The position numbers and the translations under genes are program-made. Positions 1 through 64,000 of a stretch of DNA of 64,000 bases are shown piece by piece. Numbering within the stretch: position 1 is the stretch's first letter; every line of letters begins with the position of its first letter. The notes under the pieces were generated by a model. That model worked only from the letters and a program-made list of their open reading frames with translations, made no database searches and was not told the DNA's origin. The DNA comes from Xestospongia muta (lineage: Eukaryota > Porifera > Demospongiae > Haplosclerida > Petrosiidae): NCBI GenBank assembly GCA_963693285.1, contig OY848927.1, positions 4,144,643 to 4,208,642 of the forward strand. The letters run 5' to 3'.

Positions 1-3000
1 TGATACCAGTTGAGTTCATGAAGATAGTCAGTAATAAAACTATCAGTTATATCAACTGTGAGGTTGACATTAGATCCAATAGCAGTAGATTTTACTTTAT
101 TGCCAACAGGATTAAGAAGATCTATTTAAGAATTAATAATAATTACAAAGAAATTGGGTAGGGCATATTACCTTTTACAGAAATTTTAGTATGTCCTCTC
201 CCCAATGTTGCTCCATTATATTTAACAATACAGTAGTAATTCCCTTGTTGTGTATGTCCCATAGGAACAGTCAATGTTACATTGGGATAAGTAGAAATAG
301 GCTGTGATAATGTAACTCCTGACACAGTAGTCCTCCATTGATAAGTAGTGTTAATAGGAGGACTTGGAGAGACATTACAATGAAGTGTCATTTTACTACC
401 AATAATTACAGAGGACTGGTTTGAACTCAATAATATAGTCACATTATAGAAAACGGTAGAATCTATTGTATTAAAATAATACATAATGTCTCTCTCACTC
501 CTTACTTAAACAGATGACTCCTACATCTTTACCATGATAACAATTATCTACTCCTATACCACTCATATAAGAGCACTGAATTAGATTGTCCTCATTGCCA
601 TGACAACCAACAGATGTCATCTGAACTGGTCCAATGCCTTTTCCAAAGAATGCACCACATACTGGAATAGCTCCTGTATATATAGAAGGTAATGGTCACT
701 TCATTGACTAGTGAATTCCTCACTTAATGTCTGATATCCAGCTTGTCTACATGTTACTAGAGCATCTTGTTCATCCCATCCATTACTACACACACTACCC
801 CAGTATCCATCAAGACATATCTCAACTCTACCCTCATTTAACTGACTACCATTAGATAAACGAATAGCTCCAACATTTGTACATGATTCTGTAAAGTAAT
901 GGACATGATATATATATACTGTTATTATTAGTAATATCATACCTGACTGTGATTTCATTTGACAATCCACACCTGCTCTGATCTCATCATACCAATAGTT
1001 CAAACAATTAGATGGGTTTTGATGTGAACAATGACTCAATGATGTTTCATTTCCATTACAACTGAAATAACGATATCCAACTCTTCCACTTTTAGTTTTC
1101 CAAATTATATCTGTTATAGCTACTGACCCTACAATAAGCTAAAGTATCCACTATCATATAACCAATTTATCTTACAATTGTCATAATATCCAAGTTGTCT
1201 ACATACAATTTTAGCATGAGAATAAGACCAATAATTTGTCTCTGTTGTCATCCATATTCCATCTATACATATCTCAACTTTGCCTTCATTATCACTTTCA
1301 CCATCCACTAAACGAACTGACCAATTATTGCAGTTTACTACATCTGTAGATATAAAGAAACTATTGTAATTAGTGTTAAATATGGTAGCAACATTTTGAC
1401 CTGGACAATAGATTCCTGCAGTATAAGTACATGTTCTATAATATCCATAGTTATCCTTTGAGCATTGAGTTAAAGATGTTTCACTACCTATACAGTTAAA
1501 TCTATCCCATACTAATGGTGCAGATTCTTGACTTCCTCCAAAGAATGAAGACTGACTATAAGCATGCCCTTCAAATGAAGAATAGTTCAAATATTATGAT
1601 GGACATTAAACTTACAGTTGTTATCACTGTGATATCCCAGTTGTCTACATGTCACAACCATGTTTGTTGTATAATACCAATCATCACTACATATAAATCC
1701 CCACACTCCACTTCTACATATTTGTATATCTCCTTCATTTGAACTGTTTCCTCCAACTAATCTGATATCTCCTTCAGTACCGTATCCAGAGTCTGAAGTA
1801 AAAACAAGTCAGTATGTAGAGTCTGCATTAATATTATCTTACTATAACATCTGACTCCAGCAGTATGACCATAATAACAATAAGAACAATTATAAGAATC
1901 ATAACAGGATGAAAAATCTTTGAAACTGCAATTTAAAAGATAAGTCTCTGAACCATTACATTGGACATTCCAAATAAGTTGTTGTAAGTCTCCATCTTCA
2001 AATTGTGATGATGTATAAAATGACGCCCCTATAATATCCACAATTAATAACATACTAATGAATACTAGTTTACATGTTGGGACATATCCCAGTTGTCTAC
2101 AGACAACTTGAGCATCTCTTCTGTCCCAAGAGTAACCACAGACAGTTCCCCATTCTCCATTAACACATATTTCTACTCTTCCTTCATGTGGAGTGGAACC
2201 ATTTACTAATCTAATGTTACCATCACTACAACCAGTGGAATCTAAGAAAGGGTTAATACAAGTCTATAAATTATGTATATATTCTATAAATACCCTTTTC
2301 CATACACCTGACTGCAACATCAGTGGAGTGAGTGTAATCATAAGGATTTGAGCTAATTCCACATTCATCCAGAGTATTCTCATTTCCATTGCAGTAAAGG
2401 TATGCAAAAAGAACAGGACCTGATCCTTGGCCTTGTCCATAATTTTTAAATATCAATACACCTGTATAAAATAACTAATAAACTAAGTTACAAAATTTGT
2501 ATTCAAATTACTTGGTTCCTGATATCCAAGTTTTCTGCAGACAACTTTCCCATCATTTACATCAAATTCAATGTAGGACACAGTTCCCCATACTCCATTA
2601 CTGCAATACTCTACTCTGCCCTCAACCTTATTAGGACCATTAGGTCCAACAAGACGCATAGAACCATTTGTACCACAGCTGCCTGAATGTAAAAGTTACA
2701 AATGATAAATATTTTAATAATAGAATAAATGTGACCTGTTACTACTTCTCCCATACATCTGATACTTGCTCTATTATAACGATTAGATGAAAAACAAGAT
2801 GAACCACTGGTATGAAGGCAGTTCAATAAATTTTTTTCATGTCCAATACATCTCCAGTTAGTTAGTGTTGGTATTTCATGTCCAGTACCAAAGTAGCTAG
2901 ATGATAAATATTGTGCACCTATATATACCAAACATCAAGTGATATATTATTATTATTATTATTACCTGTTGCTGGATAACGTAACTGTCTACAGACTACA

Positions 3001-3699
3001 AATGTTTCTTGATAGCCCCAGTTATTATCACACACAGAATTCCAAGCTCCATTATAACACACTTCAACTGTTCCTTCATTTGGTACCAGTCCATCAGTGA
3101 GACGAACATCACCTTGTGTACAGGAGTTAACTAGAATATAAAATTATGATAATTATGTGATTAGTAGTATAGTATCTATACCTGGACAAACCACACCAAC
3201 ATCTTTTGAGTGAGAGCAACCATAAGGATTGCCAATATCATATGTTCTTGGACATTGCAAAAGGTTACTTTCGGTACCAGTACAGTTAAGTGAATTTAGC
3301 CATATTGGTCCATTACCTTGTCCATATTGTGCATTTGGATAGTATGTCACAGCTATTAAGTATTAAATTTACGTAGTAATATTTTTATTCTCACTTTGTC
3401 CTCCATCCACTTCATATCCCAGTTGTCTACAAACCACTTTAGTATCATTAAAGTCAAAAGAGTCATCACATACTGTACCCCAAACAAAATTTATACAAAT
3501 CTCCAGTCTTCCTTGATTAGTGGAACCTCCATTTACTAACCTTAAAGATCCATGTTCACAATTGACATTATATTGACCTAAAACAAAGAAAAATCATAAT
3601 AAAAGCACACACACTTTGTTATTAGTGAGTACACATTTGACAAATAAGACAACCTTTTACACAAAAGGCCAATAAGATGAGTAAAGGAAGCAACTCCAT
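1..3699 (-). CDS. Gene A: SRCR-Ig receptor, 5' part (3' end outside window)
   Basis: Probable secreted or membrane receptor with seven SRCR domains followed by Ig-like domains. Exons in transcription order: signal peptide 3654-3699; SRCR1 3395-3577 and 3182-3352; SRCR2 2966-3130 and 2736-2918; SRCR3 2512-2682 and 2294-2461; SRCR4 2074-2241 and 1843-2028; SRCR5 1616-1792 and 1401-1568; SRCR6 1176-1343 and 943-1128; SRCR7 709-888 and 506-673; Ig1 172-462; Ig2 from 121 to the edge. Each boundary has GT/AG signals and every intron is phase 1. First half-exons carry the EGRVEIC...W...VCRQLGY pattern, second ones the GxGPI...CxGxE...C pattern. The start is [16 protein letters not shown]; an in-frame ATG five codons upstream (3712-3714) is an alternative. 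No lesion is visible. Further Ig domains, membrane helix and tail should lie left of the window. Closest relative in the window is gene B, about 8.7 kb away. Confidence 0.8.
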
Positions 3700-5580: not shown

Positions 5581-5611
5581 TTGTTGGTCTAGTTATTCTT
5601 GATTTCAACAA

Positions 5612-6323
5612 CAAAACTATCAGTTATATCAACTGTGAGGTTGACATTAGACTCAATAGTTGGGTATTTTACAACAGGATGTGGTAGACCTAAATGGATA
5701 TTACAAAGCAGTCTGATATTACAAAATAATCTTCATGAATTTACCTTGAATGGATATTTGTGTATGTCCTCTCCCCAATGTTACTCTATTATATTTAACA
5801 ATACAGTAGTAATTCCCTTGTTGTGTATGTCCTGTAGGAACACTCAATATCACATTGGGATAAGTAGAAATAGGTTGTGATAATGTAACTCCTGACACAG
5901 TAGTCCTCCATTGATAAGTAGTGTTAATAGGAGGACTTGGAGAGACATTACAATTTAAAAGCCCTCCAATCGAATTAATGTCAACATTTATCAAATCAGC
6001 ATCACCATTTTGATCAAATGTCACTCTCAGTTTCTCTATCAATTTAGAGTTCCCATTAACCCTGTAAATACCCTCTTGATTAAGACCTATTGACAACATA
6101 AGAATTCATTAAACTAATAAAACCAGCCTGTTATTATTAATAAGTAGCCATTGTCATGTGATCTTACCATGCTCTTCAATATGTTCCACTATTTTCTTAA
6201 CAATAAGAGGGATATTTGATTGTATTACAGGTTGCTGGGTATCAGTTGGTGAAGAAAGCTTTTGTGGATCTTCTGATGATGTTGGCAGTTGTGTTGGAGG
6301 GACTCCAAAAGTTAAAGTACTAC
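5612..6323 (-). pseudogene. Relic P1b: RhoGAP N-terminal part joined in frame to Ig1
   Basis: Two spliceable exons encode the start of a RhoGAP domain, the GTPase-activating domain for Rho-family proteins. Exon 6168-6323 contains LTFGVP and IPLIVKKIVEHIEEHG; after a short intron, exon 5745-6086 starts LNQEGIYRVNGNSKLIEKL, which includes the family's arginine-finger motif (EGIYRVNG). At about 5954/5955 the RhoGAP sequence changes abruptly into the receptor Ig1 domain ([15 protein letters not shown]...). The hybrid exon is 342 bases, an exact multiple of three, and keeps phase-1 borders. The following Ig2 exon (right border 5699) is cut after about 30 codons and reaches a stop near 5590. The rest of the RhoGAP domain is absent. 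A possible further upstream exon lies at about 6430-6543 (MKRVFGSPLMKKK), with an unresolved donor. Most likely a duplication breakpoint; a transcribed chimera cannot be excluded. Confidence 0.7.
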
Positions 6324-6549
6324 CTACAAAGCAAAAAGAATAAAGCATTATTACTATCTTAGGATTGAGTGAAAAACTTATTACTGAGTCAGTACAAGAT
6401 TATAAAGTTGATATAAAGAAATTACTTAAAATATCCAATGACTGTGCACTTTTTTCTTCATCAAAGGAGATCCAAATACTCTCTTCATTTTTGAAGTGAA
6501 TCCATTTGAAGTTGGACTTTCAGAGTCAATAGTTTTCCAGTAGCTGTAA

Positions 6550-7185: not shown

Positions 7186-7537
7186 TTAGTCATATATGTT
7201 CATAGGTTCATAAACTTCTATTTCCTCTTCCATATCTACATAATCTTCATCTTTATTGTAAAGCTTGGGTTTTGGTTTGATCGGTGGTTTTGTACCTGCT
7301 TTTTTATAATTAGGCTTTGCCAGCTGAGCTTTGGATGTGTCGACATACTTGGAATTCACTTGGTGTTTCACAGCTGGTTTTTGCACACTAAAAGGATGTA
7401 GATTATCATTAAATACTTCCTTTTTTATTTGTAAGTTGACATCTGGTACCCTAACACCTTGTCTTGAACTGTTACAAACACTTTCTGATTCATTGTTCTT
7501 TTCTGTAGTACTACGACGAAGTATTGCCATAAAAACT
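7186..7537 (-). other. Gene B cytoplasmic tail with two YxxM motifs
   Basis: About 116 residues after the membrane helix, beginning VFMAILRRST. The last part has a Pro/Lys-rich stretch (KPPIKPKPKLY) followed by DEDYVDM, six residues, then YEPM and a terminal NIYD. YxxM is the known binding consensus for the SH2 domains of the PI3-kinase p85 subunit. The tail shares no obvious sequence with those of C, D, E or I, so it came from another source or diverged strongly. Confidence 0.65.
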
Positions 7538-10500
7538 CTGAATAAATATCAAAATTAAAACCTATACATTCAATTTTGACTTACACTCCAATCACAATGA
7601 CAATCACAAATACAATGGCTGAACTGAAGAATCCAGCTATAAACAGACCAGCTAGCAAGCCAACACTATTACTACCAGTGTCCTCTGTTAATGTACCAGC
7701 AGTACCAGCAGTACCAGCATCAGTGTTTGATGTTGTGTTGGTAGTGTCCTCTGTTAATCTAACTATATCAGTTGTTATCACTATAACTGTATTGTCCACA
7801 GCACATTTGTAATCTCCATATTTACTACCAGTTTGATCTTCCTCAGTATTATAGACTAATTGAGATGATCCAATAGTGTTAGCAACAGACAGTCCATTCT
7901 TCATCAGTGTAATGTTATAATATAGAGGATAACCACCACTAACTGAACACACTAACACAGCATTAGATGTTGAGTTAAAATTGGTTTTATCTGTTGTCAA
8001 GTTTACTGATGGAGTTTCTATAATAAAGATTTAATCATAATGTTATATTTAGTTGTATTAGTACTAACCATAGTATTCCAGTCTTTGTACTATAGAATCT
8101 ATGACAATAGTTGATAAATTAAGATAATTGGAAGAAGTTAGGAAATTTTGATATGATTCACTACAACTCAATGATGAGAGTACTGTTGAAGATGTAACAG
8201 TTAGTTGAGACTCATAATATCCAGAGTCTAACACAGTAGGATTGTCAATACTCAAACTGTAATATGGTTGAGAATATAATATCAAGTAACTAGTGATCAT
8301 TCCTGAGGTAACCCTACTACCATCATGATACCAATATACTTGTACCTCATTACTGTATTGTTTGTCCTCATTAAGAAAACTAATGACTACAGCTTTCTGG
8401 GTTGTCTTATTAAAACCAGTGACAGGATAAGTAGAAGATGAACATCTAGCTGACTTTGTAATATCATCTCTATCTCCTAAATTAATAACAAGTTTATGTT
8501 AGTTATACAAGTGTCCTAGCTTACCCTCAACAGAGACATAGAACACAGCAGGACTCAATACTGGATAGTGTCTTAGAAGTTGTAGGAGTTTCTGTTCACA
8601 GTCTCTATTGAGACCATCAAATTTAAGAGAGTATTCTCCTACATATTCTTTAGTAATATTGGTAATAATCAGTGTCTTATTATCATTAGTAATAATGTAC
8701 TTGTTGTAGGTATTAACAATCTGTTGACCATTATGATACCAGTTGAGTTCACGAAGATAGTCAGTAATAAAACTATCAGTTATATCAACTGTGAAGTTGA
8801 CATTAGACCCAATAGTGGTAGATTTTACTTTATTGTCAACAGGATTAAGAAGATCTATTCAAGAATTAATGATAGTTATTATGAAAATGGCTATGTCTTA
8901 CCTTTAACATAAATTTGTGTATGTCCTCTCCCCAATGTTACTCTATTATATTTAACAATACAGTAGTAATTCCCTTGTTGTGTATGTCCTGTAGGAACAG
9001 TCAATGTCACATTGGGATAAGTAGAAATAGCCTGTGATAATGTAACTCCTGACACAGTAGTCCTCCATTGATAAGTAGTGTTAATAGGAGGACTTGGAGA
9101 GACATTACAATGAAGTGTCACATTACTACCAATAGTTACAGAGGACTGGTTTGAACTCAATGATATAGTGACATTATAGAAAATGGTAGAATCTATTGTA
9201 TTAAAGAAAATATATAATGTGTCTCTTACTCCTTACCTAAACAGATGACTCCTACATCTTTACCATGATAACAATTATCTACTCCTATACCACTTATATA
9301 AGAACACTGAGTTAGATTGTTCTCATTGCCATGACAACCAACAGATGTCATATGAACTGGTCCAATACCACTTCCAAAGAATGCACCATACATTGGAATA
9401 GCTCCTGTATATATAGAAAGTAATGGTTAATTCAGTGAATAGTGAATTTCTCACTTAATGTCTGATATCCAGCTTGTCTACATGTTACTAGAGCATCTTG
9501 TTCATCCCATCCATTACTACACACACTACCCCAGTATCCATCAAGACATATCTCAACTCTACCCTCATTTAACTGACTACCATCAGACAAATGAATAGCT
9601 CCAATATTTGTACATGACTCTGTAAAGTAATAGACATGATATATATATACTGTTATTATTAGTAATACCATACCTGACTGTGATTTCATTTGACAATCCA
9701 CACCTGCTCTGATCTCATCATACCAATCATTCAAATAATTAGATGGGTTTTGATATGAACAACCACTCAATGATGTTTCATTCCCAATACAACTGAAATT
9801 ATGATATCCAACTCTTCCACTTTTAGTTTTCCAAATTATATCTGTTATAGCTACTGACCCTACAATAAACTAAAGTATTCACTATCATATAACCAATTTA
9901 TCTTACAATTGTCATAATATCCAAGTTGTCTACATACAATTTTAGCATGAGAATAAAACCAATAATTTGCCTCTGTTGTCATCCATATTCCATCTATACA
10001 TATCTCAACTTTGCCTTCATTATCACTTTCACCATCCACTAAACGAACTGACCAATTAATGCAGTTTACTACATCTGTAGATATAAAGAAACTATTGTAA
10101 TTAGTGTTAAATATGGTAGCAACATTTTGACCTGGACAATAGATTCCTGCAGTATAAGTACATGTACTATAATATCCATAGTTATCCTTTGAGCATTGAG
10201 TTAAAGATGTTTCACTACCTCCACAGATAAATCTATCCCATACTAATGGTGCAGTGTCTTGACTTCCTCCAAAGAATGAATACCGACTATAAGCATGCCC
10301 TTCAAATGAAGAATAGTTCAAATATTATGATGGACATTAAATTTACAGTTGTTATCACTCTGATATCCCAGTTGTCTACACGTCACAACCATGTTTGTTG
10401 TGTAATACCAATAATCACTACATATAAATCCCCACACTCCACTTCTACATATTTGTACATCTCCTTCATTTGAACTATTTCCTCCAACTAGTCTGATATC

Positions 10501-12409
10501 TCCTTCAGTACAATATGTAGAGTCTGAGAGAATTAAAAGAAAGTCTACATCACTGTATTAACATTATCTTACTATAACATCTGACTCCAGCAGTACGACC
10601 ATAATAACAGGATGAACTAGGATTATATTGATAACTACATGATAGTAGAAATGTCTCTGAACCACCATTACTACATTGGACATTCCAAATAAGTTGCTGT
10701 AAGTCTCCATCTCCAAATTGTGATGATCTATAAAATGATGCCCCTAGAATATCCTCAGTTAATACTATGTATATACTAATGAATACTAGTTTACATGTTG
10801 GGACATATCCCAGTTGTCTACAGACAACCTTAGCATCTCTTCTGTCCCAAGAGTAATCACAGACAGTGCCCCATCCTCCATTCACACATATTTCTACTCT
10901 TCCTTCATGTGGAGTGGGACCATTTACTAATTTAATGTTACCATCACTACAACCAGTGGAATCTAAGAAAGGGTTAATATAAGTCTACAAATTATGTATA
11001 CATTCTATCAATACCCTTTTCCATACACCTGACTGCAACATCAGTGGAGTGAGTGTTATCATAAGGATTTGAGCTAATTAAACCACATTCATCCAGAGTA
11101 TTCTCATTTCCATTGCAGTCAAGGTATGCAAAAAGAACAGGACCTGATCCTGGGCGTTGTCCATAATCTCTAAATATCAGTACACCTGTATAAAATAACT
11201 AATAAACTAAGTTACAAAACTTGTATTCAAATTACTTGGTTCCTGATATCCAAGTTTCCTGCAGACAACGTTCCCATCATTTACATCAAAATGTAAGTAG
11301 GACACAGTCCCCCATACTCCATTACTGCAGTACTCTACTCTGCCCTCAATCTTATTAGGACCATTAGGTCCAACAAGACGCATAGAACCAGTTGTACCAC
11401 AGCTGCCTGAACGTAAAAGTTACAAAATGATAAATATGTTAATAATAGAATAAATGTGACCTGTTATTACTTCTCCCATACATCTGATACTTGCTCTATT
11501 ATAACGATTAGATGAAAAACAAGACGAACCACTGGTATGAAGGCAGTTTAATAATTTTGTTTCTTTTCCAATACATCTCCAGTTAGTTAGTGTTGGTATT
11601 CCATGTCCAGTACCAAAGTAGTTAGATGATAAATATTGTGCACCTATATATACCAAACATCAAGTGATATATTTTTATTATTATTATTACCTGTTGCTGG
11701 AAGACTTAACTGTCTACAAACTACAAATGCTTCTTGATAGCCCCAGTTATTATCACACACAGAAGTCCAAGCTCCATTATAACACACCTCAACTGTTCCT
11801 TCATTTGGTACCAGTCCATCAGTGAGACGAACATCACCTTGTGTACAGGAATTATCTAGAATATAAAATTATGATAATTACGTGATTAGTACTATACTAT
11901 CTATACCTGGACAAATCACACTAACATCATCTGAGTGAGAGCAACCATAACGATTCCCAATATCATATGTTCTTGGACATTGCAAAAGGTTACCCTCAGT
12001 ACCAGTACAGTTAGGTGAATTTAGCCATATTGGTCCATTACCTTGTCCATAGTTTGCATTTGGATAGGATGTCACAGCTATTAAGTAATAAATTTATGTA
12101 ATAATATTTTTATTCTCACTTTTTTCATATCCCAATTGTCTACAAACCACTTTAGTATCATTAAAGTCAAATGAGTCATCACATACTCTGCCCCAAACAA
12201 AATTTATACAAATTTCCAGTCGTCCATAATAAGTACCTCCATTTTTCAGCCTTAAAGATCCATGTTCACAATTGTCATTATACTGACCTAAAACAAAGAA
12301 AAATGATAATAAAAGCACACACACTTTGTTATTAGTGAGTACAAATTTGACAAATAAGATGACCTTTTACACAGAAGGCCAATAAGATTAGTGAAAGATG
12401 CAACTCCAT
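7186..12409 (-). CDS. Gene B: 7 SRCR - 4 Ig receptor with YxxM tail; one donor site lost
   Basis: Exons: signal peptide 12364-12409 ([16 protein letters not shown]); SRCR1 12120-12287, 11907-12077; SRCR2 11691-11855, 11461-11643; SRCR3 11236-11406, 11015-11185; SRCR4 10795-10962, 10573-10743; SRCR5 10347-10523, 10132-10299; SRCR6 9907-10074, 9674-9859; SRCR7 9440-9619, 9237-9404; Ig1 8902-9192; Ig2 8525-8854; Ig3 8069-8476; Ig4 plus stalk and membrane helix 7585-8017; tail 7186-7537. The sum is 4275 bases (1424 residues), in frame. Unlike the other genes, Ig4 runs straight into a Thr-rich stalk (LTEDT twice) and the helix LLAGLFIAGFFSSAIVFVIV, with no separate membrane-proximal domain. The donor after SRCR7 first half reads TT instead of GT (plus strand 9438-9439), so translation would stop after EKFTIH unless another site is used. 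Either a recent lesion or a secreted seven-SRCR form. Confidence 0.72.
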
Positions 12410-13379: not shown

Positions 13380-14060
13380 ATAGATGATATCCAACTTGTC
13401 TATATGTTACTAGATGAGAATCCTGTGCATTTCATTCAGTACTATGCACACTACCCCAGTATCCATCATGACATATTCCATTAGACAAATGAATAGCTCC
13501 AATATTTGTACATGACTCTGTAAAATATTGAAAACAAACCACAATGGTATTAAATTGTTGTTATAACATCACACCTGACTGTGAATCTGTTCCAATGTCA
13601 TTATACCAGTATATGTTTCATTTCTAGTACAACTTGAATAACAATAATGATGTAACTCTTCCATATTTAGAATTCCGGTGTTCATATTTGATAGCAAATG
13701 ACCCTGCAAGGTATTTATAAATTAATAACTTAATTACTATATTTATCTTACATGTAGCATAATATCCCTGTTGTCTACATAAAACTTTAACTAATAATAA
13801 GACAAATAAATTGTTTTTGTTGTCATCCATGTTCCATCTATACACATCTCAAATTGCCTTCATTTATAACTACTTTCTCCATCCACTCTTTAAGCTGTGA
13901 TTAATTTTGTCTGAAAAACATAAGAGTAAAAGGTATTAACTATCTGTAGATCATTATGATACCAGTTGAGTTTACAAAGATAGTCAGCAATAAAACTATC
14001 AGTTATATCAACTGTGAGGTTGATATTAGACCCAATAGTAGTAGATTTTACTTAATTGTC
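13380..14060 (-). pseudogene. Relic P2a: decayed SRCR7, SRCR6 and Ig2 pieces
   Basis: Minus-strand fragments: SRCR7 first half (about 13385-13525), a trace of SRCR6 second half (about 13570-13690), SRCR6 first half (about 13750-13890) and the 5' part of Ig2 (about 13945-14060). Each has internal deletions and lost cysteine or tryptophan codons. The left part is the counterpart of P1a. Confidence 0.55.
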
Positions 14061-14125
14061 AACAGTTTTAAAAAGAATAATATAAATGAATATTACAAAT
14101 AGTCTACACAACTTTATAATTTTAC

Positions 14126-14634
14126 CTTTAATAGATATTTCTATATTTCCTTTTCCTAACATTACTCCATTATATTTAACAATACAGTAATAGTAATTCC
14201 CTTGTTGTGTATGTCCTGTAGGAACAATCAATGTCACATTTGGATATGTGAAAGTGGTTAGTGATAATGTTACTCCTGACACAGCAGTCCTCCATTGATA
14301 AGTAGTGTTAGTAGGAGGACTTGGAGAGACATTACAATGAAGTGTCATTTTACTACCAATAGTTACAGAGGACTGGTTTGAACTCAATGATATAGTGACA
14401 ATATAGAAAACAACATAATCTATTGTTTTAGTGAAAATATATTATAATAACTCTCTTACTCTTTACCTAAACAGATGACTTCTACATCTTTACCATGATA
14501 ACAATTATCTACTCCTATACCACTTATATAAGAGCACTCCATTAGATTGTCCTCATTGCCATGACAACCAACAGATGGTATATGAACTGGTCCAACTCCT
14601 CTTCCAGAGAATGCATCATACACTGGAATAGCTC
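14126..14634 (-). pseudogene. Relic P2b: intact Ig1 and SRCR7 second-half exons without a gene
   Basis: Exon 14467-14634 is a full open SRCR7 second half (GAIPVYDAFSGRGVGPV...) and exon 14126-14419 a full Ig1 domain ([15 protein letters not shown]) with one extra tyrosine. Both keep AG/GT borders and phase 1. No signal exon, other SRCR exons or tail belongs to them, so they are an orphan pair left by deletion. They could in principle be used as alternative exons of a longer transcript, but nothing in the sequence shows that. Confidence 0.6.
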
Positions 14635-14639
14635 CTGTA

Positions 14640-15090
14640 TATTCTGTTTTTGAAGTATTGCAATATAAGTACTCCTTAAAAACATTAACCTTCTTCAGAT
14701 ATAGCTGGCATTCTAGCTCTAGAGCAAACACAAGTACATTTGATGTTGGAAACTTTACAGTTTATAAGTACTGCATCTTGGATTTTACTATATGTGTTGA
14801 AGTCAGTGCTCAACATTTTATAAATAGTATTGATTGGCATCTCTAAGAGAACTTCTTGAAACAATTGGATACTCTCACTTTGTTCTTAGTAGTTTTATTT
14901 GAATATGGTCTACTAATATTGTGTATACAATTGTGATAACATGCTATATACAATAAAGTTAATAAAATAGCATAATTTAACTACAAAAGCACCAATTACT
15001 ACACAAATTATAAGTGAAATGATAAGTTTACTACCCTACTAATCAATTACAAAATTATAACATGTATAAACATTTATTACAAGTGTAGTT
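14640..15090. other. 3' flank of gene C
   Basis: No gene recognised. A minus-strand AATAAA (plus-strand tttatt, 15073-15078) lies about 15 bases past the gene C stop codon and is a good polyadenylation-signal candidate. Confidence 0.5.
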
Positions 15091-15502
15091 TTAACTGTAA
15101 AGTCCTTCATAAGTATCAACATCATCAAATGATGATGTCATTGCTTCATAATCAGTATGTGGCATTTCTTTTGGTATCTCACTTGCAGCAATAGCTGTCA
15201 TTGTTTCATAATTACATTGTATTTCTTTAGGTTTCTTGTTTGCATCGATACTTGTAGTACCAATGGGTTTTACCTGTTGAGTAGTAGTAGTTGGTCTGGG
15301 CCTTGCTTGAGCTGTGCTTGTTGATCTAGGTCTGGAGGATTGATTATAAACAGTGTTACCTGATGTTTTGTTTGGCTGTTTCTGATTAGATGGTTTACTA
15401 CTAGCTACAGTGACAGCTGATGGCTTAGTGGTATATTGAACTTTATGTTGTGGTGCCAGAGTCTTTGATATTTTTGACTTTCTTGATTTTAGAAACAGAG
15501 CA
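15091..15502 (-). other. Gene C cytoplasmic tail: YxxM, YxxM, YxxL
   Basis: The tail starts ALFLKSRKSKISK, is Ser/Thr/Pro/Gln-rich in the middle, and ends with NYETM, sixteen residues further DYEAM, then nine residues and YEGLYS. Compared with gene D the first ITAM-like tyrosine has Met instead of Leu at +3, converting it toward a PI3-kinase-type YxxM. An extra YETM lies upstream. Confidence 0.65.
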
Positions 15503-28371: not shown

Positions 28372-28421
<50 letters not shown>

Positions 28422-48000: not shown

Positions 48001-49688
48001 TTGCCTATATCTGTAGATATAAGTTAATAAATACTGATAGTTGTGATTAGTTGGTTCACCTGAACAATAGATTCCTGCAGTCTCAGTACATGTACTGTTG
48101 TATCCATAGCTGTAGTTTGAGCACTGAGTTAGAGATGTCTCATTGCCTCCACAATCAAATCTATCCCATACTAATGGTGCAGTGTCTTGATTTCCTCCAA
48201 AGAATGAAGACTGAGTATAAGCATGCCCTGAATTATTAAATACTATTATGAAGTGATATAAATATATTAACTTACAATTACTGTTCTATGATAAAATAAA
48301 AGTGTCTACATACAGTGATACTGTCTGGGTAGTTCAAGTTATCACTACATATAAATCCCTACACTCCACTGCTACATATTTGTATATCTCCTTCATTTGG
48401 ACTATTTCCTCCAACTAATCTGATATCTCCTTCAGTACAGTTTGTAGAGTCTGAGAGAAGTAGAACAAGAATTGTAATATTATTATCTTACTATAACATC
48501 TGACTCCAGCAGTGCGACCATAATAACAGAATAGACTAGGATCTTGTTGATAACTACAATTCAATAGAGATGTCTCTGAACTATTACACAAGACATTCCA
48601 AATAAGTTGTTGTAAGTCTCCATCTTCAAATTGTGATGATCTATAAAATGATGCCCCTAGAATATCCACAGTTAATACTATGTATATACTAATGAATACT
48701 AGTGTACATGTTGGGTCACATGGGAGTGGAACCATTTACTAAACAGATATCATCTCTAGTATTTAATGTACAACATGTTAAATAGTTATAGCTACTTATA
48801 TTACATACCTTCATTCATACATCTGATTCCAACATCAGTTGAATGAGATGAAGAGTATAAAGGTAAATTAGAATTACAATTAGCTAAAATAGACTTTTTT
48901 TCAACACACTCAAGAGAATTAAATAGTACAGGACCTGATCCAAACATCAACTGATATGTATTAGTATTATTACCTGTTGCTGGAAGACCTAAATATCTAC
49001 AGACTACAAATGCTTCTTGATACCCATAGCCATAATGACATACAGAAGTTCAAGCTCCATTATAACACACTTCAACTGTTCCTTCATTTGGTACCAGTCC
49101 ATCAGTGAGACGAACATCACCTTGTGTACAGGAGTTAGCTAGAATATAAAATTATGATAATTATGTGATTAGTTGTATAGTATCTATACCTGGACAAACC
49201 ACACTAACATCATATGTGTGAGAGCAAGAATAAGTAGCATACCCAATAATAGATCCTCTTGGACATTGCAAAAGATTACTCTCAGTACCAATACAATTGG
49301 GATAGTTCAACTATATTGGTCCACTACCTTCTCCATATTGAGTATATGGATTGTATGTCACAGCTATTAAGTACTGAAATGCACGAAGTAATATTTTTAT
49401 TCTCACTTTGCCCTCCATCCACTTCATATCCTAGTTGTCTACAAGCCACTTTAGTATCATTAATGTAAAAATAGTCATGACATATTGTGCCCCAGACAAA
49501 ATTTATACAAATCTCCAGTCATCCATAATAAGTACCTCCATCTACCAGCCTTAAAGATCCATGTTCACGATAGGCATTACATTGACCTTTAAACAGAGAA
49601 TAGTCAAACTTAGTGAGTATATATATATGACAAGTAGATTACCTTCAAAATACAAGACCAATAAGATTATCAAAATAAGCAACTTCAT
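45069..49688 (-). pseudogene. Gene G: pseudogene, copy of E with an extra deletion
   Basis: Signal-peptide exon 49643-49688 (as in E). It shares with E the SRCR1 TAG (49311-49313), the SRCR4 collapse near 48720, the SRCR6 TGA (47768-47770), the SRCR7 deletion and the Ig3/Ig4 fusion near 46089. It differs in lacking SRCR2 second half, SRCR3 first half and part of SRCR3 second half, removed by the 479-base deletion at 48940/48941. The SRCR1 second-half acceptor is intact here (it is mutated in E), and the extra base of E near 35696 is absent. The tail exon 45069-45388 is the same as in E. Confidence 0.8.
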
Positions 49689-49739
49689 TGTGAAAGCATA
49701 AGCCTGTAGTTTGAGCTAGTCTACTACTTTATGACTTAT

Positions 49740-49750
49740 CTTTTATAGAG
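49740..49750 (-). promoter_or_regulatory. TATA box of gene G
   Basis: Minus strand CTCTATAAAAG with GATAAGTCATAAAG, 52 bases upstream of the ATG. It is preserved although the gene is broken. Confidence 0.45.
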
Positions 49751-49799
49751 TGTGGATCAATAAAGAACATCTGACAAAACAAATATTACATGTGGACAG

Positions 49800-52421: not shown

Positions 52422-55400
52422 CTACAGTTGTTTAACTATCACTGATGCTGTAAGGAGACCATTACTAGCAGCATAGATGAAAGTAGAGGAGAAAGTCAGA
52501 ATATTATTAGAACATGATTGACTACTTTCTTTAAAGAAAGCATTAACTAATGAACAACTACAGAAGAGCTGAGCATCTCCCTTTATAGCAGACTCTATTG
52601 CTGGGATGTGGTGATCCTGTAAAGAAACAAACATTAATGCTTCATTATATGTAGCTTACATTCCATTGATGACAGCTATCCACACAAGCGACTACTGATC
52701 ATTCCTGAGGTAACCCTACTACCATCATGATACCAAAATACTTGTGCCTCATTACTGTATTGTTTGTCCTCATTAAGAAAACTAATGACTACAGCTTTCT
52801 GGGTTGTCTTATTAAAACAAGTTACAGGATAAGTAGAAGCTGAACATCTAGCTGACTTTGTAATATCATCTTTATCTCCTAAATTAATAGCAAGTCTATG
52901 TTAGTTATACAAAGTGTCCTAGCTTACCCTCAACAAATACATAGAACACAGCAGGACTCAATACTGAATAGTGTCTTAGAAGTTGTAGGACTTTCTGTTC
53001 ACAGTCTCTATTGTATTGATACAGTCTCAGACCATCAAATTTAACAGAATATTCTCCTACATCTTCTTTAGTAATATTGGTGATAATCAGTGTCTTATTA
53101 TCATTAGTAATACTGTACTTGTTGTAGGTATTAACAATCTGTTGATCATTATGACACCAGTTGAGTTCACGAAGATAGTCAATAATAAAACTATCAGTTA
53201 TATTAACTGTGAGGTTGACATTAGACCCAATAGTAGTAGGTTTTACTTTATTACCAACAGGATTAAGAAGATCTATTCGAGAATTAATAATAGTTATAAA
53301 AACGGCTAGGGCATATTACCTATTACAGAAATTTTAGTATATCGACTCCCCAATGTTGCTCCATTATATTTAACAATACAGTAGTAATTCCCTTGTTGTG
53401 TATGTCCTGTAGGAACAGTCAATGTCACATTGGGATAGATGGAAATAGATTGTGATAATGTAGCTCTTGACACAGTAGTCCTCCATTGATAAGTGGTTTT
53501 AATAGGAGGAGACGGAGAGAGATATTACAATAAAGTGTCACATTACTACCAATAGTTGACTGGTTTGAACTCAATGATATAGTGACATTATAGAAAACAG
53601 CAGTATCTGTAATAGTAAAGAAAGTTTTTTTGTAATTAAATTCCTTTCTCTTTACCTAAACAGATGACTCCTACATCTTTACCATGATAACAATTATCTA
53701 CTCCTATACCACTTATATAAGAGCACTCAGTTAGATTTTCCTCATTGCCATGACAACCAACAGATGTCATATGAACTGGTCCAACTCCTCTTCCAAAGAA
53801 TGCACCATACATTGGAATAGCTCCTATATATATAGAAGGTAATGGTTAATTCAATGACTAGTGAATTCCTCACTTAATGTCTGATATCCAGCTTGTCTAC
53901 ATGTTACTAGAGCATCTTGTTCATCCCATCCATTATTACACACACTACCCCAGTATCTATCAAGACATATCTCAACTCTACCCTCATTTAATTGACTTCC
54001 ATTAGATAAACGAATAGCTCCAACATTTGTACATGACTCTGTAAAATAATAAAGATAATCCATAGTGTTATACTTATATAATACCTGACTGTGATTTATT
54101 CTCACATTCTACACCTACTCTGATCTTGTCATACCATTGATCTAACTCTCCATAATACCATGAAATATAATAATAAGAACAATTACTCAATGATGTTTCA
54201 TTTCCAGTACAACCAAAATATCGATAGCCAACTCTTTTACTTTTAGTTTTCCAAATTATATCTGTGATAGCTACTGACCCTACAGTAAGCTAAATTAACT
54301 ACTATCATATAGAATAGTTATATTACATTTGTCATTATATCCAAGTTGTCTACATACAATTTTAGCATGAGAATAAAACCAATAATTAGCCTCAGTTGTC
54401 ATCCATATTCCATCTATACATATCTCAACTTTGCCTTCATTATCACTTTTACCATCCACTAAATGAAGTAACCAATTAGTGCAGTTAACTACATCTGTAG
54501 ATACGAAGGAATTATTGTAACTAGTGTTAAATATGGTAGTAAGTTTGACCTGGACAATAGATTCCCGCAGTATAAGTACACATACTACGATATCCATAGT
54601 TATACTTTGAGCATTGAGTTAAAGATGTTTCACTACCTATACAGTTAAACCCATCCCATACTAATGGTGCAGTGTCTTGACTTCCTCCAAACAGTGAATA
54701 CCGATTATAAGCATGCCCTTTAAACGAGAATAGTTAAAAACTGAATAATATTATTGTGGGTATTAAACTTACAGTTGTTGTTAGAGTATCCAAGTTGTCT
54801 ACATGCAACATTTCTATTTGCTATGGGCTACCAGTAATTACCACATATAAATCCCCACACTCCACTTCTAAATATTTGTATATCTCCTTCATTTGAACTA
54901 TTTCCTCCAACTAATCTGATATCTCCTCCCACACAGTATGTAGAGTCTGAAAGAATGCATAATCATAGTCACTGCAGTTATAATGATGACATTATCTTAC
55001 TATAACATCTGACTCCAGCAGTATGACCATAATAACAGGATGAACTAGGATTATATTGATAACTACAATTCAGTAGAGATGTCTCTGAACCACTGTAACT
55101 ACATTGGACATTCCAAATAATTTGTTGTAAGTCTCCATCTCCAAATTGTGATGATCTATAAAATGATGCCCCTAGAATATCCACAGTTAATACTATGTAT
55201 ATATCAACGAATACTAGTTTACATGTTGGGTCATATCCCAGTTGTCTACAGAGAACTTGAGCATCTATTCTGTCCCAAGAGTAATCACAGACAGTTCCTC
55301 ATTCATCATTGACACATATTTCTACTCTTCCTTCATGTGGAGTGGAACCATTTACTAGTCTAATGTTACCATGAGTACAACCAGTGGAAACTATGAAAGT

Positions 55401-56832
55401 ATAAATATTGAATGATATAATATATAACATAAAAAACCTTTTTCCATACACCTAACTCCAACATCAGTGGAGTGACTATACCAATAAGGATAATGATACC
55501 AAAAAGGATGTGAGATAAAACCACAATCATCCAGAGTAAACTCATTTCCATTACAGTCAAGGTATGTAAAAAGAATAGGACCTGATCCTTGTTTATAGTA
55601 TCTGAATATCAGTACACCTGTATAACTAGTAAAGTAAGATATAAATGTGTGTTCAAATTACGTGGTTCCTGATGTCCCAACCTCCTGCAGACAACTTTCC
55701 CATCATTTACATCAAACCCCCTATTGGACACAGTTCCCCATACTCCATTACTGCAGTACTCTACTCTGCCCTCAACATCATTAGGACCATTAGGTCCAAC
55801 AAGACGCATAGAACCAGTTTTACCACAACTGCCTGAATGAGAAAGTTACAAAATGATGAATATTTTAATAATGCAATAAATGTTATCTGTTACCACTTCT
55901 CCCGTACATCTGATAACTGTTCTACGATGAACACCAGGATATGAGAAACAAGATGAACTGGTATGAGGCAGTCCAATAATTTTGTTTCATTTCCAAAACA
56001 TCTCCAGTAACTTAGAGTTGGTATTCCATGTCCAGTACCAAAGTAGCTAATGATAAATACTGTGCACCTATATATACCAAACATCAACTGATATATTATT
56101 ATTATTATTATTACTACTTGTTGCTGGAAGACCTAACTGTCTACAAACTACAAATGCTTCTTGATAGCCCCAGTCACTATTACACACAAAATTCCAAGCT
56201 CCATTATAACACACTTCAACTGTTCCTTCATTTGGTACCAGTCCATCAGTGAGACGAACATCACCTTGTGTACAGGAGTTAACTAAAATATAAAATTATG
56301 ATAATTATGTGATTAGTAGTATAGTGTCTATACCTGGACAAACCACACTAACATCTTCTGAGTAAGAGCAACCATAAGGATAGCCAATATCATATCTTCT
56401 TCTGCACTCTAAAAGATTACTCTCAGTACCAGTACAATAGAGACGATTCAACCATATTGGTCCACTACCTTGTCCATAATATGCATATTGATAGTATGTC
56501 ACAGCTATTAAGTATTAAAATTATGTAGTAATATATTTATCCTCACTTTGTCCTCCATCCACTTCATATCCTAGTTGTCTACAAACCACTTTAGCATCAT
56601 TAGTGTCAAAAGAGTCATCACATACTGTGCCCCAAACAAAATTTATACAGATTTCTAGTCTTCCTTGATTAGTGGAACTTCCATTTTCTAACCTTAAAAA
56701 TCCATGCTCACAGTAGCCATTACATTGAACTGAAAACAGAGAATAGTCAAACTTAGTGAGTATATATATATATATGACTAGTAGATTACCTTCAAAACAC
56801 AAGACCAATAAGATTAAAATAAGCAACTTCAT
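52422..56832 (-). pseudogene. Gene H: SRCR-Ig pseudogene related to F
   Basis: Signal peptide 56790-56832 ([15 protein letters not shown]), SRCR1 (56547-56729, 56334-56504), SRCR2 first half (56118-56282) and several later exons are open. Lesions: SRCR2 second half has two small deletions (near 55955 and 56048) and a changed donor; SRCR4 first half a TGG-to-TGA stop (55299-55301); SRCR5 first half a TAG (54828-54830); Ig1 a two-base gain near 53515; and a deletion of about 609 bases relative to F, with five filler bases, at 52680-52686 removes Ig4, the 3' half of Ig3 and the start of the membrane-proximal part. It shares with F the loss of helix and tail (last residues TASVIVKQL, then stop at 52422), so that loss predates the F/H duplication. 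Confidence 0.8.
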
Positions 56833-59553: not shown

Positions 59554-59851
59554 TTAGTTATCATAAATGTCTTCGTATGTTGACATCATTGCTTCATTTC
59601 CTTTGCATTTCTTATTTGAGCTGGCAACTGTAGTATAATGTGGTTTTATTGGTTGTGTATTATTGAGTGCTTTGGGACCTGTACTTGATGTTTGCCCCGT
59701 ACGGTAATGTGGTACATTGTAATGCAGTGTACTGCTTAGTAGCTCATTACTATGAATAGAAACAGACATAGACTCTGCAGTGTGTTGTACTTCCTCTTGC
59801 GGTATTGTAATCTTTGTTGCTCTAGCTTTTCTTGATTTCAATAATATAGCA
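59554..59851 (-). other. Gene I cytoplasmic tail with ITIM-like STYEDI
   Basis: Begins [20 protein letters not shown] and ends [20 protein letters not shown] fits the ITIM consensus, known to recruit SHP-type phosphatases. Compared with E/G the final YQGL is missing, leaving a single full motif. Confidence 0.65.
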
Positions 59852-62800
59852 CTATACAATACATTAAATTATTATAACATAATATGTACTTACATGATTA
59901 TAATAATGAATATTCCATATAGTATTGTAGCACTAATAAACCCACCAAAAAACAGTCCAGTCAAAATTCTAATATTATTGTTCTCCTTTTGATTTAGATT
60001 AGTACTGATTATCACTTTTAATTTTTGTCCATTAACTATTAAAGTTGTATTCCTTCCTTGACTGAAATCTGTCTTCAGTTGTTCAACTATCTCTGATGCT
60101 GTAAGGAAACCATTACTAGAAGAATAAATGAAAGTAGTAGAGAATGTCAGATTGTTATTAGAACATAATTGACTACTGTCATTAAATGAACCATTAACTA
60201 ATGAACAACTACATGATAGTTGAGCACGTTCCTTTATAGCAGACTCTATTGCTGGAATTTGAAGATCCTAATGAAATGAAAAAAATTTGGAGCTACCTTT
60301 TATTATAATTTCTTACATTCCAATGATGACAACTGTCAACTTGTAAATACAGAGATAGTTTAGCTAAAATGGAATATTAAAACAATTATCATTATGAAAT
60401 GTTTAACCTTCTTCCTTTATATGCACACTTGATTCAATCTCAATGACTGTATTATTGACTACACACTTATACATTCCATACTGACTGCCAGTTTGATCTC
60501 TTACAGTATTATAGACTAACTGAGATGATCCAATAGTGTTAGCAATAGACAGTCCATTCTTTATCAGTGTAATGTTATAATATAGAGGATAACCACCACT
60601 AACTGAACACACTAACTCAGCATTAGATGTTGAGTTAAAACTGGTTTTATCTGTTCTCAAGTTTACTGATGGAGTTTCTATAATAAAGATTTAATCATAA
60701 TGTTATATTTAGTTATATTAGTACTAACCATAGTATTCCAGTCTTTGTACTATAGAATCTATGACAATAGTTGATAAATTAAGATAACTGTATAAAGTCA
60801 GGAAGTTTTGGTATGAGTTACTACAACTCAATGATGAGAGTACTGTTGAAGATGTAACAGTTAGTTGAGACTCATAATATCCAGAGTCTAACACAGTAGG
60901 ATTCTTAATACTCAAACTATAATATAGTTCAGAATATAACCTCAAGTGACTACTAGACATTCCTGAGGTAACCCTACTACCATCATGATACCAAAATACT
61001 TGTGCCTCATTACTATATTGTTTGTCCTCATTAAGAAAACTAATGACTACAGCTTTCTGGGTTGTCTTATTAAAACCAGTGACAGGATAAGTAGAAGCTG
61101 AACATCTAGCTGACTTTGTAATATCATCTCTATCTCCTAAATTAATAACAAGTTTATGTTAGTTATACAAACTGTCCTAGCTTACCCTTAACAGAGACAT
61201 AGAACACAGCAGGACTCAATACTGGATAGTGTCTTAGAAGTTGTAGGACTTTCTGTTCACAGTATCTATTGTATTGACACAGTCTGAGACCATCAAATTT
61301 AACAGAGTATTCTCCTACATCTTCTTTAGTAATATTGGTAATAATCAGTGTCTTATCATCATTAGTAATACTGTACTTGTTGTAGGTATTAACAATCTGT
61401 TGATCATTATGATACCAGTTGAGTTCACGAAGATAGTCAGTAATAAAACTATCAGTTATATCAACTGTGAGGATGACATTAGACCCAATAGTAGTAGATT
61501 TATTTCTTTTGCCAAAAGGATGAAGAAGACCTAAATGGACATTGCCAAATGGTTTACACAACTACATTGTTTTACCTTTAATAGATATTTCTATATGTCC
61601 TCTCCCTAATGTTGCTCCATTATATTTAACAATACAGTAGTAATTCCCTTGTTGTGTATGTCCTATAGGAACAGTCAATGTCACATTGGGATAGGTAGAA
61701 ATAGGCTGTGATAATGTAACTCCTGACACAGTAGTCCTCCATTGATAAGTAGTGTTAATAGGAGGACTTGGAGAGACATTACAATGAAGTGTCACATTAC
61801 TACCAATAGTTATAGCGGGCTGGTTTGAACTCAATGATATAGTGACATTATAGAAAACAGTAGAATCTATCATTTTAGAAAGAATATATTATAATAACTC
61901 TCTCATTCTTTACCTAAACAGATGACTCCTACATCTTTACCATGATAACAATTATCTACTCCTATACCACTTATATAAGAGCACTGAGTTAAACTGTTCT
62001 CATTGCCATGACAACCAACAGATGTCATATGTACTGGTCCAACTCCTCTTCCAAAGAATGCACCATACATTGGAATAGCTCCTATATATATAGAAGATAA
62101 TGGTCACTTCATTGACTAGTTAATTCCTCACTTAATGTCTGATATCCAGCTTGTCTACATGTTACTAGAGCATCTTGTTCATCCCATCCATTACTACACA
62201 CACTACCCCAGTATCCATCAAGACATATCTCAACTCTACCCTCATTTAACTGACTACCTCCAGACAAATGAATAGCTCCAACATTTGTACATGATTCTGT
62301 AAAATAATAAAAAATAATGTATATTAATTATTAGTAATATCATACCTGACTGTGATTTTATTTGACAATCTACACCTGCTCTGATTTCATCATACCAATA
62401 GCTTAAATGATTAGATGGGTTTTGATATGAACAACCACTCAATGATGTTTCATTTCCATTACAACTGAAATATTGATATCCAACTCTTTCACTTTTAGTT
62501 TTCCAAATTATATCTGTGATAGCTACTGACCCTACAATAAGCTAAAGTATTCACTATCATATAACCAATTTATCTTACAATTGTCATAATATCCAAGTTG
62601 TCTACATACAATTTTAGCATGAGAATAAGACCAATAATTTGCCTCTGTTGTCATCCATATTCCATCTATACATATCTCAACTTTGCCTTCATTATCACTT
62701 TCACCATCCACTAAACGAACTGACCAATTAGTACAGTTGACTACATCTGTAGATACAGAGGATTATATGAGGATTATAAAGGAATCGTACTACTTTTACA

Positions 62801-64000
62801 ATAGCATGTATTTGACCTGCACAATAGATTCCTGCAGTCACACTGTAATATCCATATGTATAGGTATCCTTTGAGCATTGACTTAAAGATGTTTCACTGC
62901 CCATACAGTTAAATCTACCCCATACTAATGGTGCAATGTCTTGACTTCCTCCAAAGAATGAATATCGACTATAAACATTCCCTTCAAGCAAAAATAGTTA
63001 AAAACTGAATACTATTATTGTGGGCATTAAACTTACAGTTGTTGTTAGAGAATCCAAGTTGTCTACATGTAACATTCACATTTGCTATGGAATACCAGTC
63101 ATAACCACATATAAATCCCCACACTCCACTTCTACATATTTGTATATCTCCTTCATTCGGATTATTTCCTCCAATTAGTCTGATATCTCCTTCAGTACAG
63201 TATGTAGACTCTGATAGAATACATAAGTCATAATCACTGCAATTTTAATGATGACATTATCTTACTATAACATCTAACTCCAGCAGTACAACCAAAATAA
63301 CAGGCTAAACTAGGATTATATTGATAACTACATGATAGTAGAGATGTCTCTGAACCACCATTACTACATTGGACATTCCAAATAAGCTGTTGTAAATTTC
63401 CATCTCCAAATTGTGATGATGTATAAAATGATGCCCCTAGAATATCCACAGTTAATACTATGTATATACTAATGAATACAAGTTTACATGTTGGGTCATA
63501 TCCCAGTTGTCTACAAACAACTTGAGCATCTCTTCTGTCCCAAGAGTAATCACAGACAGTTCCCCATTCTCCATTGACACATATTTCTACTCTTCCTTCA
63601 TGTGGAGTGGAACCATTTACTAATCTAATGTTACCATGAATACAACCAATGGAAGCTATGAAAGTATATTGAATGATATAATATAAAACATAAAAAACCT
63701 TTTTTGATACACCTAACTCCAACATCAGTGGAGTGACTATACCAATAAGGATATAAGCCAAAACTACAGTCATCCAGAGTAAGTTCATTTCCATTACAGT
63801 CAAGGTTCACAAAAACAACAGGACCTGATCCTTGTCCATAGTTTCTAAATATCAGTACACCTATATAGAACAAAGTAAAGTTATCACAGTCCAGAGTACA
63901 TCTCAAAATTACGTGGTTTCTGATGACCTAACCTCCTGCAGACAACTTTCCCATCATTTACGCCAAAACCATAATAGGATACAGTCCCCCATACTCCATT
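59554..64000 (-). CDS. Gene I: SRCR-Ig receptor with ITIM-like tail (5' end outside window)
   Basis: Exons from the right edge: SRCR3 first half 63913 to beyond 64000, second half 63699-63860; SRCR4 63488-63655, 63266-63436; SRCR5 63037-63210, 62817-62981; SRCR6 62579-62746, 62346-62531; SRCR7 62117-62296, 61914-62081; Ig1 61576-61866; Ig2 61186-61530; Ig3 60729-61136; Ig4 60408-60677; membrane-proximal 60317-60363 and 59894-60267 (helix near [18 protein letters not shown]); tail 59554-59851. All frames are open and all splice sites present. By comparison with D, the missing part should be the signal peptide, SRCR1, SRCR2 and the start of SRCR3. Likely a functional surface receptor. Confidence 0.8.

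Follow-up and report, generated by a model that had tools for sequence, protein, structure and literature searches.

The proteins proposed to mediate allorecognition in sponges, cnidarians and ascidians are not conserved, and systems from cnidarians to mammals converge on signalling of the immunoreceptor tyrosine-based activation motif or inhibition motif (ITAM/ITIM) type (PMC12065747). Vertebrate paired receptors such as CEACAM1 and CEACAM3 combine closely similar ectodomains with differing cytoplasmic motifs (PMC5112662, PMC3533184). Sponges are known for large families of genes with scavenger receptor cysteine-rich (SRCR) domains: 296 in Amphimedon queenslandica, of which 158 lie in tandem arrays (PMC10855680), with more than 600 SRCRs in Halichondria panicea (PMC8242945). 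SRCR-like domains of sponges can be associated with immunoglobulin (Ig) domains, and an SRCR protein of Petrosia ficiformis may recognise photosymbionts (PMC4772301). Here we describe a tandem array of SRCR–Ig receptor genes from the sponge Xestospongia muta, located in a 64,000-nucleotide stretch of chromosome 11 (C11; OY848927.1, 4,144,643-4,208,642), referred to below as the window, and continuing beyond both of its edges; window coordinates are used for all units. The locus is best read, with about evenly balanced confidence, as a lineage-specific tandem array of immune-type surface receptors that diversify their outputs.

Like the CEACAM pair, the X. muta array sets closely similar ectodomains against differing cytoplasmic motifs, and it is also clustered with fast turnover; unlike paired receptors, it has an SRCR-rich ectodomain and no robust ITIM member. 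A further point of comparison with vertebrate paired receptors is the transmembrane (TM) helix, in which no mid-helix charge was seen by eye and an arginine lies near the inner end in units A and U96. Botryllus fuhc and Hydractinia Alr are, like the array, invertebrate receptors, with reported ITIM, ITAM or hemITAM motifs (PMC12065747). The allorecognition link of fuhc and Alr is based on genetics; the X. muta array is described here from sequence. The fuhc and Alr ectodomains are not known to be SRCR-rich, and the receptor chain of CD6 is not known to have Ig domains. CD5 and CD6 resemble the array as membrane SRCR receptors in cell recognition, CD6 having three SRCR domains (PMC4533223). The oyster receptor CgIgIT2 is, like unit D of the array, an invertebrate Ig receptor with a TM segment and a classic ITAM, and it binds microbes; unlike the array, it has five Ig domains, and neither SRCR domains nor an array of alternative tails appear in the sections consulted (PMC11999971). 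The SRCR expansions of A. queenslandica and Stylissa carteri are alike in their multi-SRCR genes, many of them in tandem; the term ITAM is absent from the main texts describing them, and linked alternative tails do not appear in the sections consulted (PMC10855680, PMC4772301). No sponge ITAM receptor was found in the consulted parts of the open-licence literature on sponge SRCR/Ig/ITAM receptors and allorecognition (PMC12065747, PMC11999971 and PMC9505182 among them), which is a weak negative.

Architecture and extent of the array

The exons of unit D were called by hand from the sequence and then reproduced by a purpose-written spliced protein-to-DNA aligner, giving a gene with no frameshift and no internal stop over 22 exons and 1,508 codons. 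Its order is signal peptide, seven SRCR domains (each split across two exons), four Ig exons, a linker exon, an exon for a membrane-proximal domain and the TM helix, and a tail exon. Introns 1-19 are in phase 1 and the next is in phase 0; the tail exon is preceded by a phase-2 intron, as it is in all five tail classes of the array. Unit D belongs to the SRCR superfamily, with seven PF00530 stretches (441.8 bits versus a cut-off of 26.1), and to the Ig superfamily, with PF13927, PF07679 and PF13895 all above cut-off. The same Pfam scan gave no match above cut-off for the membrane-proximal domain, and an AlphaFold2 model of this domain (helix-strand-strand-helix; mean predicted local distance difference test score, pLDDT, 49.9) was too weak for fold assignment. 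A TM helix was found by hydropathy in all nine tailed proteins tested (D, B, A, U129, U119, I, U142, C and U154) and none was found in F.

A first-pass annotation of the window had proposed a tandem array of nine same-strand units with homologous SRCR and Ig exons, and such an array is present: units A to I all lie on the minus strand, with A and I crossing the window edges. The search for further members that it recommended placed the 3′ end of A in the left flank, at about -1530, and found eight more units to the right, named by the position of their Ig1 exon (U73, U85, U96, U108, U119, U129, U142 and U154). The array thus comprises 17 units, all on the minus strand and spanning ~160 kb as placed by Ig-exon matches, with additional receptor fragments scattered between them. 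By alignment, frames are open through the TM segment and tail in 13 of the 17 (A, B, C, D, I and all eight right-hand units), and four of the nine window units (E, F, G and H) are broken or truncated. Per-exon identity and clustering both show closely similar ectodomains in linked genes, the arrangement of paired receptors.

The published odXesMuta1.1 assembly contains 158.52 Mb in 15 chromosomes at a GC content of 31.5-34% (PMC12398682). The sequence searched amounted to 158.03 Mb in 28 contigs as against 298 scaffolds in the published assembly, so that small scaffolds seem to have been left out. Across this sequence, all 23 matches to a membrane-proximal/tail query fell inside C11:4143540-4298001, as did 55 of the 59 matches to an Ig query at the array; at least 173 SRCR matches were found genome-wide. 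The other four Ig matches mark an isolated partial Ig-exon relative at C11:2380691-2382578, ~1.8 Mb away on the plus strand, opposite to the array. Remnants of more units lie in the right flank (68214-68596 and 80121-80503 in window coordinates), in the form of D-type upstream regions whose first exon has lost its ATG.

Cytoplasmic tails and their candidate readers

Comparison of five representative tails revealed three lineages without detectable mutual similarity. In a database of these five, the tails of D and U129 matched at 46 bits and that of U142 matched them at 12-15 bits, and the B and U154 tails had no match to the others (1.5 bits or less, E of 0.14 or more). Lineage 1 contains D, C, the class-1 tails (E, G, I, U73, U85, U108, U119 and U129) and the short tail of U142; lineage 2 contains A, B and U96, with the pattern YxxM-x6-YxxM, in A YEDM-x6-YEPI; and lineage 3 is the acidic tail of the divergent U154.

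Three of the tail types named in the first-pass annotation were recovered by a motif scan of 14 trimmed tails, that of U154 being scanned separately in the shuffle set. The ITAM-like tail of D reads YETL-x9-YEEL with a glutamate at -3 and is a canonical ITAM; the tail of C contains YETM followed by YEAM-x9-YEGL, a YxxM/YxxL hybrid; and the double YxxM of B has a similar counterpart in the YEDM/YEPI of A. The pattern Yxx[LI]-x6-12-Yxx[LI] on a TM protein, which identifies an ITAM by sequence, was found in unit D only (1 of 14 tails), and twin tyrosines at a spacing of 10-13 were found in five (A, B, C, D and U96). The class-1 tails miss the stretch around the tyrosines. Two Yxx[LI] motifs remain in U129, E and G, six residues apart and too near for an ITAM; a C-terminal YExL is retained in U119, U108 and U85; I has only YEDI; and the scan found no Yxx[LI] in the U73 tail. 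The hemITAM-type pattern [DE]{2,3}x(1,2)Yxx[LI] is matched in just two of the 14 tails, U119 and U108, which are not claimed here as hemITAMs. The frequency of such motifs by chance was estimated from 20,000 shuffles of each of four tails (D, C, U129 and B), whose frames begin with a few residues translated from intron sequence. Loose ITAMs arose in 0.4% (0.0038) of shuffled D tails, 1.5% for C, 2.3% for U129 and 1.8% for B, and the strict ITAM appeared at 0.0001 (0.01%) in shuffled D tails. The ITAM of D is unusual for a single tail, and less so with about 14 related tails examined.

The ITIM-like tails that had been claimed for E, G and I are not supported by the same analysis. An ITIM-like match is present in five of the 14 tails, two of them those of the broken genes E and G; its frequency is 18-29% in the four sets of shuffled tails; and no match is found in the intact class-1 paralogues U119, U85 and U73. 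The match of U154, SVYCII in the reading frame, becomes VVYCII in the spliced protein and lies at the membrane edge. The ITIM-like matches are at chance level and not conserved, and the inhibitory class rests on a chance-frequency motif that is lost in paralogues and whose window carriers are disrupted in two of three cases.

Regulatory subunit p85 of PI3K prefers YxxM, and Syk prefers YxxL/I. Candidate readers of the Syk-like, SHP and p85 types are encoded in the X. muta genome. A locus on chromosome 7 contains two SH2 domains and the start of a kinase domain, the first SH2 piece best matching ZAP-70/SYK in the PDB (E of 2e-39), with ABL as the next family (about 5e-20). On chromosome 11, an SH2-ankyrin start and a kinase piece form a locus that we take to be a Shark-type kinase. 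Genes with the order SH2-SH2-PTP comprise an open one on chromosome 5, three adjacent ones on chromosome 3 and pieces of another on chromosome 8. Along its whole length, the phosphatase domain of the chromosome 5 gene aligns with SHP-2 and SHP-1, but two-domain receptor-type phosphatases score higher in this search, so that its assignment to SHP is based on the order SH2-SH2-PTP. The three tandem SHP-like genes on chromosome 3 (C3:11954500-11964499), each with one open frame, indicate an expanded SHP-like family. A match to the iSH2 region of PI3K p85 lies on chromosome 7 (E of 2e-10, above cut-off); 1 of 14 control genomes matched, below cut-off.

The activating-type tails are credible. Binding of a ligand by the SRCR/Ig stalk would cluster the receptors, and Src-family kinases would then phosphorylate the twin C-terminal tyrosines. 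The ITAM of D could recruit the tandem SH2 domains of Syk or a Shark-type kinase and the twin YxxM of A, B and U96 could recruit PI3K p85, with C perhaps doing both. A microbial or symbiont ligand is a first guess because SRCR proteins of sponges have already been discussed as microbe receptors (PMC4772301). Of the proposal that similar outsides carry opposite outputs, the varied cytoplasmic modules stand, with one canonical activation motif and candidate readers for it; the opposite outputs are not supported, the inhibitory motif being at chance frequency.

Ectodomain exchange, duplication and disrupted units

Averages over the ectodomain were taken from 12 units (A, B, D, F, I, U73, U85, U96, U108, U119, U129 and U142), leaving out C, E, G, H and U154. 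Nucleotide identity to D per exon is mostly 80-99%, with lower values, in the 70s, for SRCR 1, 3b, 4, 5 and 6b of some units, and the nearest paralogue switches between exons among the 12. At 358 informative sites, unit D favours F up to SRCR4b (79%) and B afterwards (67%), a split matched in 0 of 2000 permutations; across eight triplets, picked with the per-exon identities known beforehand, the corresponding counts were 0, 0, 0, 26, 4, 0, 0 and 0 of 2000. Within the SRCR domains, diversity is higher in the second half than in the first (mean amino acid identity 0.80 versus 0.88). The array may have expanded by unequal exchange, with ectodomain exons reshuffled among units, and its C-terminal cassettes (Ig4/stalk/TM and the one-exon tail) would vary by recombination and by change of tail length.

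Together with the single gene cluster and tails that include an ITAM, these mosaic ectodomains are also what would be expected of a locus at which paired activating and inhibitory receptors serve allorecognition, a sponge counterpart of Botryllus fuhc or Hydractinia Alr, for whose candidates ITAM/ITIM-type signalling has been reported (PMC12065747). The array offers no convincing inhibitory member, however, and the pooled ratio of nonsynonymous to synonymous substitution rates (dN/dS) for the ectodomain is below 1 (0.63 for SRCR and 0.61 for Ig over the 12 units), giving no positive selection by this measure; we consider such a locus distinctly unlikely.

Window positions 28397-34955 and 42385-48941, the blocks carrying E and G, are 99.1% identical over 6.56 kb, and beside them lie blocks that are 97-98% identical (35433-37340 with 48940-50844, and 37366-38361 with 51679-52680). 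This 97-99% identical segment is a recent segmental duplication carrying E and G, or could instead be an uncollapsed haplotype. Unit E has 14 lesion contexts and G has 12, of which ten are identical in the two units. The primary assembly has a consensus quality value (QV) of 56.3 (PMC12398682), which makes base errors an unlikely source of frameshifts common to two copies. The first-pass annotation had listed E and G among the nine receptor units; both are disrupted. An assembly artefact, in which the E and G blocks would be two haplotypes of one unit in the primary assembly, draws on the identity of these blocks and on the 28 haplotypic duplications that were removed from the assembly (PMC12398682). 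It would cover these blocks of the array only, however. Identity between D and F, which flank them in matching places, is 90% over 4.3 kb, and exon by exon the other units diverge from D by anything from a few percent to 20-odd percent. We regard an artefact as very improbable.

Among the remaining units, A and B each have 20 exons without frameshift or stop, with a phase-2 intron ahead of the tail exon of B, and C has no frameshift or stop and fewer SRCR domains. The layout of signal peptide, SRCR and Ig1-Ig4 said to be common to all nine window units is borne out for the homologous SRCR and Ig exons, but the signal peptides are of several types (MKLL in D, E, F, G and H; MEL in A and B; a distinct one in C), C is short of SRCR domains and H is minus most of Ig3-Ig4. 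A signal peptide was looked for in unit I and not found; that of U142 is out of frame as read, and U154 has a candidate ~1 kb upstream. In U73, U85 and U108 the cassette of Ig4 and membrane-proximal domain is duplicated in frame, giving the order Ig1-4, domain, Ig4′, domain, TM. The absence of a cytoplasmic tail from F and H agrees with the sequence; F stops before the membrane, and H is disrupted. Unit F could be either a soluble form or a dead gene; if expressed at all, its product would be shed in soluble form. U154 is the most divergent unit, with an alignment score to D of 2554 versus 5394-6248 for the other intact full-length units, and may for this reason be founder-like.

Debris also lies between the units. 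In the chimeric piece after unit B (Table 1), a RhoGAP exon continues in the same reading frame into part of an Ig1 exon, and the scar of a recombination is thereby visible. Downstream of unit A and U96, too, RhoGAP-like pieces were seen by eye, the Pfam test covering the piece after B. A RhoGAP-tailed receptor was ruled out, as the class-3 tail exons (A, B and U96) run into stop codons before the RhoGAP-like exons. To the left of unit A are more same-strand reading frames that by eye, with no family search, resemble the rest of a separate gene, and the RhoGAP pieces are read as debris of a neighbouring gene copied along with the units.

Table 1. Receptor units, tail features and fragments in the X. 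muta window
Feature	Position	Strand	Basis
Unit A, 5′ and middle part: signal peptide [20 protein letters not shown]1-7, Ig1-4, TM, tail YEDM-x6-YEPI	1..3699	-	Spliced alignment, tail frame
Chimeric debris: RhoGAP-domain fragment joined to Ig1-Ig2 fragment	5592..6399	-	Sequence; Pfam RhoGAP E=3.9e-13, two exons joined
Unit B, intact: signal peptide, SRCR1-7, Ig1-4, stalk-TM inside Ig4 exon, twin-YxxM tail	7186..12409	-	Spliced alignment
Unit B twin motif YVDM-EEEIEV-YEPM	7201..7242	-	Motif scan, coordinates checked
Fragment: SRCR half, Ig1, part of Ig2	13893..14761	-	Exon matches
Unit C, short form: own signal peptide, one partial SRCR, SRCR5-7, Ig1-4, membrane-proximal domain, TM, tail	15091..19204	-	Spliced alignment
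Decayed copy of membrane-proximal domain; class-4-like tail remnant further downstream (by eye)	20277..20473	-	Sequence comparison
Unit D, complete 22-exon receptor gene, 1,508 aa	23548..29139	-	Hand-called exons, reproduced by spliced alignment; Pfam
Unit D tail exon	23551..23899	-	Exon calls; phase-2 intron upstream
Unit D ITAM [22 protein letters not shown]	23557..23607	-	Motif scan, shuffles, coordinates checked
Unit E, disrupted, class-1 tail	31083..36184	-	Alignment to D: 10 frameshifts, 4 stops
Unit F, frame open to membrane-proximal domain, then stop; no TM or tail	38103..43125	-	Alignment, hydropathy
Unit G, disrupted, class-1 tail	45069..49688	-	Alignment to D: 7 frameshifts, 5 stops
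Unit H, disrupted, most of Ig3-Ig4 missing, TM/tail not found	52422..56832	-	3 frameshifts, 2 stops
Unit I, open frame, class-1 tail ending STYEDIYDN; 5′ end beyond window	59554..64000	-	Alignment, tail scan

Selection, relatives and interpretation

Selection on the tails was compared with that on the ectodomain, bearing in mind that the copies are young and that the tests therefore have low power. Pooled tail dN/dS was 0.81 for C and D, 0.74 for A, B and U96, and 1.49 for the six intact class-1 tails; in the last third, the motif region with few sites, the values were 2.05, 0.71 and 2.11, respectively. The pooled value of 1.49 hinted at diversification, but positive selection on class-1 tails was rejected, as the count of distinct changes gave no significant excess (P greater 0.09-0.31, P less 0.78-0.95). 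In the same six units, a nonsynonymous deficit was found in Ig1-4 (P less 0.001, 0.017 and 0.055 at kappa 1, 2 and 3) and in the second SRCR halves (0.0007, 0.029 and 0.13). The first SRCR halves showed a deficit at kappa 1 only (0.019, 0.12 and 0.26) and the membrane-proximal/TM exon showed none (P less 0.18-0.41).

Because the class-1 tails show no detectable purifying selection, neutral drift of the tails is a serious rival. The array would then be a young birth-and-death family of scavenger type in which only the ectodomain works, in binding or endocytosis, while the tails drift and decay and the ITAM spacing of D is coincidental. The nonsynonymous deficit in Ig1-4 and the second SRCR halves, set beside tails of the same units that lack one, fits this account, as do the four broken or truncated units of the nine in the window, the loss of tyrosine motifs from class-1 paralogues and the frequency of SRCR expansions in sponges, exemplified by the 296 genes of A. 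queenslandica (PMC10855680). On the other hand, D and C share the twin-tyrosine layout despite a tail dS of 0.27, the unrelated lineage of A, B and U96 carries twin YxxM (YEDM/YEPI in A) at ITAM-like spacing, and tail frames are open in most of the array. We give this account an appreciable chance of being right, well short of even.

Relatives outside the array were sought among proteins of other datasets. In the first search, 7,949 candidates were scored, and the following come from the best 120 of 1,968 matches. The JGI protein P0030 (seven SRCR, Ig, TM) is 40% identical to D over 92% of D. U154 aligns with residues 4-1455 of the 1457 of P0030, TM and tail included, with no frameshift or stop and with the phase-2 intron before the tail; because of this end-to-end alignment, the architecture and the acidic tail are taken to be conserved beyond the X. 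muta genome, which suggests that the receptor architecture is older than the array. The ectodomain matches in A. queenslandica, P0007 (52% identity over 83% of the query) and P0026 (60% over 47%), stop before any TM segment. In searches with C-terminal sequences, D found only P0007 and P0030 found only itself (7,993 and 7,991 word-sharing candidates scored, respectively); absence of the tails elsewhere is weak evidence, because only word-sharing candidates were scored and the search with D did not list P0030.

Several of these results weigh against a signalling array with diversified outputs. A full ITAM is present in just 1 of 14 tails, and the probability that a loose ITAM arises by chance somewhere among about 14 related tails is not negligible. 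The distinct changes in class-1 tails, 53 nonsynonymous and 13 synonymous, agree with the unconstrained expectation, so that tail function is unsupported by constraint within the array. The acidic tail of U154, the one that is conserved between datasets, is devoid of twin-tyrosine motifs, and P0007, the closest A. queenslandica protein among the matches listed, stops after Ig4, leaving the tails unmatched there.

A tandem array of immune-type receptors with diversified outputs nonetheless remains the reading that we prefer, and a sponge array with one clear ITAM plus other tyrosine tails is credible. A bolder version, in which recombination sets near-identical SRCR–Ig outsides on a menu of outputs (ITAM, twin YxxM, hybrid, silent and soluble), so that paired-receptor recognition through tyrosine motifs would reach the Porifera and govern self/non-self or symbiont discrimination, is rather doubtful. 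If the tails work, an array with an ITAM and with candidate readers of the Syk, SHP and p85 types would extend the convergence on ITAM/ITIM signalling to sponges and name a testable locus for it. With its modular tail exon behind a phase-2 intron and its exchange of ectodomain exons, the array would also illustrate how the output of a receptor may change while its outside is kept.

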